Assembly (NCBI GenBank): GCA_944322645.1
Contig: CALUPI010000009.1
Coordinates: 1-40,544 of the forward strand
DNA: 40,544 nucleotides
Source of the DNA: an uncultured Ureaplasma sp.
GTDB lineage: Bacteria; Bacillota_I; Bacilli_A; Mycoplasmatales; Mycoplasmoidaceae
Direction of reading: 5' to 3'
This document shows positions 2,870-40,544 of this stretch, one piece after another. The translations under genes were made by a program, and so were the position numbers. The notes beneath the pieces are model-generated. The model was not told where the DNA came from. It saw nothing but the letters and a program-made list of their open reading frames with translations, and ran no database searches. Every line of letters starts with the position of its first letter. The first letter of the stretch is position 1.

Positions 2870-3034
2870 ATATTTCACATTAATGTATTTTTTTAAAAAT
2901 ATTTGTAATTTTTACTTATTTAAAAAACCAAAATTATATAATTTTAAGCTTTAATGCTTTTTGAATAAAAATAAATTTGTAAATTTTAGTAAATTTTGAA
3001 ATCTTTTCATTGTTTATTAATGAGGTGAAAAAGA

Positions 3035-3433
3035 ATGAAAAATCAAAATTCTAAGTTCAAACATGTTCTAAATGATTATGATATTGAATCTGTTGAGATT
3101 CACAATTATGATTTATTTGCAAAATTAAAAGATAAAATAAAAAAAGAAAAGTCAAATAAGTTAAAGAAACCAAAGGAATATAAAATGGTAAGAAAATCAA
3201 AAACTGATACAATTCTTGAAGTTGTTTTAAATTTAAAAGAGGAATTTAGTGATCTAAAAACTAGAGTAGGTAATTTAGAAAATAGTTTTAATGATTTTAA
3301 GGTTGAAGTGAGAAATGAATTTAGTAATGTTAATTCACGTTTGGATAGACTTGAAGATGATGTTCAGATTTTAAAGCAGGATGTAAATCTTCTTAAATCT
3401 GAAGCTATAAAACATGGATGGAATATTAAATAA
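3035..3433 (+). CDS. Coiled-coil protein, paralogue of the gene at 40161-40544
   Basis: The product is 132 residues and has no signal peptide or membrane segment, so it is probably cytoplasmic. The first ~50 residues are basic (KDKIKKEKSNKLKK). From about residue 55 there is a heptad-repeat coiled coil (LEVVLNLKEEF, then repeated LxxDVxxLKxDV units) ending in LKSEAIKHGWNIK. It is highly similar to the partial gene at the other end of the window, which has more heptads. The style resembles the DUF16/UPF0134 coiled-coil family of Mycoplasma pneumoniae, but I only see similarity of pattern, not a diagnostic motif. The start at 3035 has GAGGTG 8 bases upstream. The gene stands alone and converges on a membrane protein gene. 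Function is unknown; oligomerisation is inferred from the coil. Confidence 0.8.
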   Translation: MKNQNSKFKHVLNDYDIESVEIHNYDLFAKLKDKIKKEKSNKLKKPKEYKMVRKSKTDTILEVVLNLKEEFSDLKTRVGNLENSFNDFKVEVRNEFSNVNSRLDRLEDDVQILKQDVNLLKSEAIKHGWNIK

Positions 3434-15406: not shown

Positions 15407-15476
15407 ATTTTCTCCTAATTAATTGAAATGTGTTAATATAATTATATATTATTATATATAATAAGAAAGTTTGAAT

Positions 15477-16061
15477 ATGAAAAAATTTAATCCTTTTTTT
15501 GATAATAAACTTAAACCAACAATGGAATGAATTGTACCAGATTCTGATCCTAGAATTAGAAAAGTATGTGAACAAGTTAAATTCCCGTTATCCAATGATG
15601 ATATTGAATATATAAAAAAAATGGTGGCTTATGTTGATGCAAGTTTTTATGAAAACTATGATCAATTCAATATCACCCCTGGTGTAGCAATTGCCGCTAA
15701 TCAAGTAGGTTTGTTAAAACGTATAATTTATTTTCATTATTTAGATGATTATGGAATAGAAAAACATTGACTAATTGCTAATCCTCAAGTTATCAATAAA
15801 TCTGAGGACATTACATATTTAGAGCATGGAGAAGGTTGTTTATCTGTACCTGAATCTAGACAAGGAATAGTACCAAGAAAAGCATCAATAAAATTTAAGG
15901 CATTTGATATTATTAATGAAAAAAACATAACTCTTGAATTAGAAGGATACCCTGCAATTGTTGCTCAACATGAACTTGATCATTTAGATGGGATTTTATA
16001 TTATGACCACATAAATGTGTTAGATCCAAATTATACAAATTCAAAATGAAAGAAAATTTAA
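15477..16061 (+). CDS. def: Peptide deformylase
   Basis: This 194-residue iron/zinc enzyme removes the formyl group from nascent proteins. The three signature motifs are present: GVAIAANQ (69-76), EGCLSVP (119-125, Cys ligand) and HELDH (165-169, two His ligands and catalytic Glu). Three Trp codons are TGA. The upstream region has TATA-rich sequence and only a weak AAGAAAG ribosome binding site. The stop codon lies in the loop of a bidirectional terminator and overlaps the convergent gene by 3 to 4 bases. Confidence 0.96.
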
Positions 16062-16077
16062 TTCTTTCATTTTTTTT
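16043..16077. terminator. Bidirectional terminator over the def and Sua5-RpiB stop codons
   Basis: A stem AAAATGAAAGAA/TTCTTTCATTTT has the stop codon of def in the 7-base loop. It is followed by T4 on the plus strand, continuing the pairing bases, and by T4 on the minus strand. Confidence 0.72.
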
Positions 16078-17041
16078 CATAATCAATAATAGTTTGAACT
16101 CTTTCTAAATGTCTACCGCCTTCAAAATTAGTAATAACAAAATTTTTAATATTTTCTAAATTTGTATCATAATCAAATAAACTAAAATCAAATATACCAA
16201 TATTTGCATCATCATGAAGTCTAGATAACTCTGAAATTTGATTATCATAAATAATTGCAGATCTTATTAAATAGTGTTTATTAAATAAAATATCTCATTT
16301 ATTAGGATTTTGAGTTAATACAACCCCATAAGTGTACTCATTATTTAATATTTCATTACATAAATTTTCTGCATTTTTTTCATTTAAAGGCATTATTTTT
16401 AATTGAAATTTTTCATTATCAATTATCTCTTTAATTGCATTTAAATATCCGAAACAAAGTTCATCATATAATATTATAAATTTCTTATTATGAATATTGT
16501 GATTATTGATAAAATCTTGAATTTCGACCAAATGTTCGCCTTCTCTTAAAATTTTTCAATTATCAATATCAATAATAGTAGATGCTAAATTACCACCTGG
16601 TTTCCCTTCAACCACAACCAAATCGAAATATCATTTTTTTGAACTAAATTGTGATTCAACATGATTTGAATCAATAATTGTTTGCTGATCACTAATGTTA
16701 GCACTGCTACAATATAATGTACCGCACTTTGATAATAAGTACAAAATATACTTATCATTTGGCATGCGGTAGGAAATTTGATTTTTTACAATTGTTACTC
16801 CTCCAGGTCAAAATTTATTAACAAATTCTTTTTGAATTTGTGTAAGTGTTCCTAAATCATTTAAATTAAAAATAAATTTTATAATTTTTTTATTTTTTGG
16901 TCTATTTTTAATTTGATAAATAATATTTTCATTATTGGCTAAAATACCCATAACAGTATCTGTAGGAATAATAACAGCTTTGTTATTTTTAATTTCAAAA
17001 ACAACAGAATCTAATTCACTATATTTATAAGTTTTAAACAT
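16058..17041 (-). CDS. Fusion of Sua5/YrdC threonylcarbamoyl-AMP synthase with a degenerate RpiB domain
   Basis: The product has 327 residues. Residues 1 to about 165 are a YrdC domain, which makes threonylcarbamoyl-AMP for the t6A modification of tRNA: PTDTVMGI (26-33), KNRPKNKK (45-52), FWPGGVTIV, SANISD and STIID followed by ILREG. From about residue 180 the sequence follows ribose-5-phosphate isomerase B: a beta-strand/helix opening FIILYDELCFGYLNAIKEII, then SRLHDDANIGIF and the clear RpiB ending FEGGRHLERVQTI. The RpiB active-site loop with its Cys (CGTGxG) is replaced by TQNPNK, and the early Asp-His pair is not kept, so isomerase activity is unlikely. The frame is continuous through four or more TGA Trp codons. 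It lies 15 bases downstream of prmC. Confidence 0.85.
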
Positions 17042-17056
17042 ACTAAATTTATTTTA

Positions 17057-17908
17057 TCAATTTTTGCTAATTACAAGAATTCTATCTAGGCCAGAATAAT
17101 CTTTTATTATTTCAATATTAATATCTTTGTAAATATTGGAAGCAAATGATGATATGGCCTCAGCCTGATTATAACCAATTTCAAAAATTATTAAAAAACT
17201 ATCTTGATTTAACACATTTAATGATTGTTGTAAAATCGCCTTGTATACCATTAAACCATTATCTCCACAATATAGTGCCATTAATGGATCATATTTATTC
17301 ACATTATTACCCACATGAATATCTCCAATTGATATATATGGCGGATTAGAAACAATAACATCTAATTTAGTATTAGTTTTGTAATAGTATTCTAAGTTTG
17401 GACTTAAGTTAATGTTAGTTTTTATATTAAGTTGCTCAGAATTTTTAACAGTATTAAAATATGCATTTTCATCAATATCAGATTGATACATTTCAATATC
17501 ATTAATTCTTGATTTTATTGATAAACCAATCACACCTGTCCCACAACAAACATCAGCTATATTTAATTTGTTAGTTTTTATAAGCTTTTCTTGAATTTTT
17601 TTAATTGCTATTTCAACAAGTAATTCAGTCTCTAGACGTGGACTAAAAACATTGTTATCAACTATAAAATCTAATCCATAAAAATGTACTTTATTAGTTA
17701 TTTTGCTTAATGGTTTACCATTTATATAATCATTAGCTGCTTCTAAAATTTTTTGAAAATTATTAATCTCGTCATTTTGGTGTTCGATTATATCTAATTT
17801 ATTTTTATAATGCAAAAAATGTTCAAGCAAAAAGTATGCAATATTTTCATTTTCCTTTGCTTTTTTTAACATTTCTAATAACATTAAATTCAATTCTTTT
17901 AAAGTCAT
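17057..17908 (-). CDS. prmC: Release factor glutamine methyltransferase PrmC (HemK)
   Basis: The 283-residue SAM-dependent enzyme methylates the Gln of the GGQ motif of the release factor encoded just upstream. It has an N-terminal helical domain, the linker FSPRLETE (88-95; consensus IPRPETE), the SAM site ADVCCGTGVIGLS (118-130) and the catalytic NPPY (188-191). The start lies 4 bases after the prfA stop, so the two are coupled. Confidence 0.95.
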   Translation of the reverse strand: MTLKELNLMLLEMLKKAKENENIAYFLLEHFLHYKNKLDIIEHQNDEINNFQKILEAANDYINGKPLSKITNKVHFYGLDFIVDNNVFSPRLETELLVEIAIKKIQEKLIKTNKLNIADVCCGTGVIGLSIKSRINDIEMYQSDIDENAYFNTVKNSEQLNIKTNINLSPNLEYYYKTNTKLDVIVSNPPYISIGDIHVGNNVNKYDPLMALYCGDNGLMVYKAILQQSLNVLNQDSFLIIFEIGYNQAEAISSFASNIYKDINIEIIKDYSGLDRILVISKN

Positions 17909-40160: not shown

Positions 40161-40544
40161 TTAATTAATATTTCATCCATGTTTAATAGCTTCAGATTTA
40201 AGTGAATTCACATCTTGTTTTAAAATATGAACATCAGATTTAAGAACATTAACATCATCTTTTAAAATATTTACATCATTCTTTAAAACGTTAACATCAT
40301 CTTCAAGCTTATCCAGACGAGAATTAACCTTACTAAATTCTTCTCTTACTTCAGTTTTAAAATTATTTAAATCATTCTTAATTTCTTGAATTTTAGATTT
40401 AACTTCAGTTTTAAATTCACTAAATTCCTCTTTTAAATTTAGCACAACTTCATACAACAAATCAATTTTACTTTTTTTTGCCATTTTAGATTCCTTGTCT
40501 TTTGCAATATTATTTGATTTTTCTATCTTTATTTTATCTTTTAA
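40161..40544 (-). CDS. Coiled-coil protein, paralogue of 3035-3433 (N-terminus beyond window)
   Basis: The frame is open to the window edge, so the start is outside; 127 residues are visible. The ATG at 40484 is internal, because the residues before it (LKDKIKIEKSNN...) match the matching part of the paralogue. The coil has extra heptads: LEDDVNVLKNDVNI, then LKDDVNVLKSDVHILKQDVNS, ending LKSEAIKHGWNIN. The paralogue at 3035 has three fewer. The Trp near the end is TGA here and TGG in the paralogue. Probably cytoplasmic; function unknown. The IS30-type remnant follows it. Confidence 0.8.

Follow-up and report, generated by a model that had tools for sequence, protein, structure and literature searches.

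The window, the whole 40,544-nucleotide stretch of DNA analysed here, comes from a gut Ureaplasma-like bacterium and carries a gene in which sua5 is joined to an rpiB-like sequence (Table 1). The frame of this gene contains five TGA codons; it is open only when TGA is read as tryptophan, and is broken under translation table 11. Two Pfam domains score above the cut-off in its product, Sua5_yciO_yrdC followed by LacAB_rpiB. Directly upstream is a methyltransferase gene, presumably prmC, a name given by sequence recognition. At the other end, a peptide deformylase-like gene on the plus strand (15471-16061) runs convergently towards the fusion gene, and the two overlap by four bases.

Table 1. 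Location of the fusion gene, its neighbour, its domains and motifs, and the standalone rpiB copy (positions are those of the window unless another locus is given).
Feature	Position	Strand	Remark
sua5-rpiB(A) fusion gene	16058..17041	-	327 aa with TGA = Trp
prmC-like methyltransferase gene	17054..17908	-	directly upstream of the fusion gene
TsaC/Sua5 (YrdC) domain, residues 17-168	16538..16993	-	Pfam, E 1.9e-24
RpiB-fold 'A' domain, residues 187-324	16070..16483	-	Pfam, AlphaFold2 model, Foldseek
YDEL, residues 192-195	16457..16468	-	RpiB Asp-His site, here Asp-Glu (alignment)
TQNPNK, residues 243-248	16298..16315	-	site of the CGTGxG catalytic-Cys loop, lost (alignment)
LSRLHDDAN, residues 272-280	16202..16228	-	ring-opening His276 kept (alignment)
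FEGGRHLERV, residues 306-315	16097..16126	-	phosphate-binding Arg310/Arg314 and His311 kept (alignment)
standalone rpiB copy B	L130:6167-6739		contig C12; 191 aa

Four other genomes of the genus contain the fusion frame with both domains, which in one of them is cut by a contig end. An assembly or frame artefact was rejected, since the same fusion is present in five genomes. Overall identity among the orthologues is about 44-70%; the protein described here is about 70% identical to its counterparts in G554 and G559. An earlier sequence-only reading of this DNA had reported a Sua5/YrdC and RpiB fusion in one frame, which the Pfam matches and the five genomes bear out, and the survey of relatives extended beyond the genus to other families of the class.

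The N-terminal half has the KxR...SxN catalytic tetrad and the Thr/Ser/Arg threonine-binding residues of the TsaC/Sua5 family: T27/T29, K45-x-R47, S113-x-N115, S154 and R166 are kept, in columns that are invariant in 14 aligned sequences. Because every column invariant over these 14 relatives is retained, the Sua5 half is probably an active threonylcarbamoyl-AMP (TC-AMP) synthase of the TsaC type. The sequence-only reading was thus right to see a t6A-synthesis domain with its main motifs intact. Archaeal and yeast Sua5 proteins also begin with a TC-AMP synthase domain and continue with an alpha/beta domain, but there the second domain is the SUA5 domain, whereas here Pfam identifies LacAB_rpiB. 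No C-terminal SUA5 domain was detected; the only Pfam families above the cut-off in the fusion protein are PF01300 and PF02502. The suggestion that RpiB independently replaced the C-terminal domain of an archaeal-type Sua5 is abandoned in favour of a TsaC-type protein plus RpiB.

Does the C-terminal domain (A) have the RpiB fold? The Pfam LacAB_rpiB match covers residues 222-318 (E 3.4e-13), and the AlphaFold2 model is a full RpiB alpha/beta sandwich with a mean pLDDT of 88.7. In Foldseek, the best RpiB match in the PDB is 6mu0 (E 4.7e-9), with 1o1x (E 5.0e-9) and 4em8 also found; the model is paired with LacA (4lfk_A) as well. The fold first proposed from the letters of the sequence is therefore supported by structure prediction. 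The RpiB signature EGGRHLERV (residues 307-315) and the reading of the CGTGxG catalytic-Cys loop as TQNPNK are confirmed in the sequence. The early Asp-His pair had been described as gone, which is correct for the His, replaced by Glu194, but not for the Asp, still present as Asp193 and in three of four comparable orthologues. The single chain thus lacks a complete RpiB pocket. The domain evolves fast: its tree branch is about 2 substitutions per site, and the RpiB part is 63-68% identical to the nearest orthologues, compared with 76% for the Sua5 part. The retained His and Arg residues do not change among the fused copies; the Cys-loop region varies freely.

The assembly (787 kb, 93.9% complete) contains exactly two RpiB-family matches, the fusion gene and a standalone copy (B) on contig C12. 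By alignment, B carries GGDHASY and CGSGIG. In place of SRxHN it has NARENQSN, with one residue deleted, and EGGRHxxRV is missing. In the model of B the RpiB fold extends to about residue 130, and the tail beyond it is of low confidence; having lost the ring-opening His and the Arg pair, B does not hold a complete pocket in one chain either. A separate intact rpiB, which the sequence-only reading had thought worth looking for, was not found in the assembly, the sole other RpiB-family gene being incomplete.

The same division is seen across the genus, sampled in ten genomes. Five of these (the present one, G000, and G554, G557, G558 and G559) are split, each having a fused A and a standalone B; G552, G553, G555, G556 and G560 have a single RpiB each, with all pocket residues present. 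In all five split genomes, B has kept the Asp, His, Tyr, Cys, Ser/Thr and RpiB-type GxR Arg and has lost the ring-opening His and GGRHxxR. Conversely, A has kept the ring-opening His in all five and RHxxR in all four that can be measured (the fifth is cut by a contig end after its His). It has lost the Cys loop in 5/5, together with the His of Asp-His, the Tyr and the GxR Arg. The split assemblies are 94, 82, 85, 84 and 74% complete, so a complete rpiB could be missed in any one genome; the rough chance that it was missed in all five, calculated from these values on the assumption of independent gaps, is less than 1 in 10,000. G554 has a third RpiB-like frame (L125:4298-4786) that is far more degenerate, scoring 24 bits and missing nearly all pocket residues.

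Gene order bears on the ancestry of both copies. The order prmC-sua5-rpiB is conserved in related genomes, so A occupies the ancestral place of rpiB. In four of the five unsplit genomes rpiB adjoins sua5: in G552, G553 and G556 it shares 8-16 nt with the end of sua5, in another frame, and in G560 it lies close by. This supports the earlier idea that the fusion arose through neighbouring genes. Where a split genome has both flanks on the contig, B is found between clpB and tdk, except in G557, where its neighbours are dnaX and tdk; no rpiB was found in the tdk flanks examined from unsplit members of the genus.

Profile scores place both copies with RpiB. The four complete copies of A score 53-73 bits against RpiB profiles and 30-41 bits against LacA/LacB, and the ranges for B are 121-133 and 90-108 bits; examples are 64 versus 35 bits for A and 128 versus 108 for B. 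NCBIfam agrees for both copies, and neither reaches the LacA/LacB cut-offs of TIGR01118/TIGR01119 (A, 12.6 versus 181 bits; B, 79.9 versus 312.6 bits). In a tree that leaves A out, B groups with the RpiBs of the genus and family (91/90). Long-branch attraction is the likely reason why the tree puts A next to f8 RpiBs, and AU tests of these short, fast-evolving RpiB domains do not reject a grouping of A with LacA or of B with LacB (p about 0.22); synteny and profile scores were therefore used to judge the ancestry. Resolution is poor in the Sua5 tree of the genus, where the unfused G556, with its complete RpiB, stands beside the fused G557 (84/86), so the tree does not show that the fusion arose only once.

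RpiB usually works as a homodimer that forms two equivalent sites; in each of these, the Asp-His, Tyr and Cys loop come from one chain and the His and Arg residues from the other. The fold, the sua5-adjacent place in relatives and the summed pockets of A and B are those of RpiB (e.g., Mycoplasma genitalium, PDB 6mu0), except that each chain of a normal RpiB carries the full set of pocket residues, and A and B carry part of it each. In the crystal structures of LacAB (PDB 4lfk-4lfn), also built from two RpiB-fold subunits, LacA contributes Met92, His96, Asn97, Arg130, His131 and Arg134 to the active site, and LacB contributes Asp8, His9, Arg39, Tyr42, Cys65 and Thr67 among others; the second site is vacant, and either subunit alone is inactive (PMC3755991). 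In the RpiB dimer of C. immitis, too, the partner protomer contributes a conserved Asn that reaches the pocket (PMC3212906). Against a full match with LacA, residue 97 is Asp rather than Asn in most A domains. The residue table of the five genomes shows the same complementary half-sites in two paralogous chains, A with the A-type His and Arg and B with the B-type Asp-His, Tyr, Cys and Ser/Thr. Since the residues of A and B divide along the line that separates LacA from LacB, a shared A-B active site is proposed.

The metabolic context calls for such an enzyme. Transketolase and Rpe are present in the genome, a gene that we take, by sequence recognition, to encode PRPP synthetase lies on the same contig as B, and RpiA was not found above the cut-off in any of the ten genus genomes; a ribose-5-phosphate isomerase step is therefore needed. 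We consider it probable that A and B are the two obligate partners of a heteromeric ribose-5-phosphate isomerase, of independent origin but similar in operation to LacAB, with A as the tail of an active TsaC/Sua5. This proposal is based on sequence, synteny and fold prediction, from which we infer the pairing of A with B, its activity and its substrate. In the most likely history, rpiB was duplicated in this lineage, one copy was fused to sua5, and each copy lost what the other kept: the copy after sua5 would have lost the Cys-loop half to become A, and the copy between clpB and tdk would have lost the His/Arg half to become B. Only the A-B pair would then complete one site, combining the Cys loop of B with His276, Arg310, His311 and Arg314 of A, and the second site would be dead, as in LacA-LacB.

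Is the fused domain instead a pseudoenzyme, kept for structure, dimerisation or ligand sensing on behalf of Sua5, with Rpi activity coming from elsewhere? This was the view of the sequence-only reading, and the loss of the Cys loop and of the His of Asp-His in all fused orthologues speaks for it. However, the residues that A retains are the half that acts in trans, they are invariant in the fused set amid a freely varying Cys-loop region, and the only other RpiB is complementary. This view would predict an intact RpiB elsewhere, but no complete Rpi enzyme was found in the rest of the assembly; the pseudoenzyme is unlikely. A related possibility is that B is a weak homodimeric RpiB and A a relic decaying since the fusion. 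The H99N variant of E. coli RpiB, as cited in PMC3755991, keeps its Km with a 26-fold lower kcat and is thus slowed, not dead, so B alone might retain weak activity; the long branch of A would also fit decay. Yet A has an open frame and a conserved C-terminal half, its His and GGRHxxR persist in orthologues whose overall identity is only about 44-70%, and B has lost the phosphate-binding Arg pair besides the His, so this account is very unlikely.

Could A and B be a displaced LacA/LacB pair, that is, a galactose-6-phosphate isomerase? The division of pocket residues is identical, true LacA/LacB tandems are known in related genera, and the AU tests do not reject it. Against this identity, RpiB profiles outscore LacA/LacB for both copies, A sits at the rpiB place of sister species, B groups with RpiBs of the genus and family and keeps the RpiB-type phosphate Arg (GxR), and LacB Arg39 is absent. 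The genes lacA and lacB are clustered among lac genes, whereas the present A forms the tail of Sua5 and B is encoded on a different contig. There was no match to lacD (TIGR01232) in this genome or its relatives, which is weak evidence, as related genomes with LacAB tandems also lack it. The profile scores, the synteny and the missing lacD place A and B with RpiB, and a LacAB identity, most improbable, was rejected.

If A and B do form a heteromeric ribose-5-phosphate isomerase, then an obligate heteromer of the LacAB kind would have arisen from a homodimeric RpiB a second time, independently. One genus would show both the state that preceded and the state that followed the duplication, the loss of complementary halves of the active site and the fusion. 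A protein of tRNA modification would be required for an essential step of carbon metabolism, and annotators relying on motifs within single chains would misname both halves or call both dead. It is conceivable, though unlikely, that assembly of Sua5-A with B, or binding of ribose-5-phosphate at the shared site, alters the activity or stability of Sua5, so that translation capacity tracks the supply of nucleotide precursors.

The Sua5-RpiB fusion itself is not unique; the unusual part is the half-site state and the mirror-image partner. Other families of the class also have such fusions: L009, L014, L017 and L029 share the domain order, at a full length of about 343-354 aa, but their RpiB domains keep the Asp-His, Cys, His and RHxxR. 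Their tree positions are scattered, and they are probably independent fusions. Searches of a library of open-access papers turned up no account of a Sua5-RpiB fusion or of a split RpiB, which is weak evidence.

Other arrangements of the family occur among relatives. In another genus of the family, three frames of about 285-340 aa (L075, L077 and L078, in G481, G484 and G483) contain LacA-like and LacB-like halves, apparently a single-chain version of a complementary pair. In G304, G300, G301, G302 and G299, a LacA/LacB-like tandem (L103 and L105-L108) represents the only RpiB-family genes; transketolase was not found in G299 and G304, the two checked, and G299 also lacks Rpe and lacD.

Elsewhere in the window, two small heptad-like proteins, encoded at 2996-3433 on the plus strand and 40161-40484 on the minus strand, have a near-identical C-terminus (SRLDRLEDDV...LKSEAIKHGWNI). 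They resemble the coiled-coil DUF16-like families of mycoplasmas.
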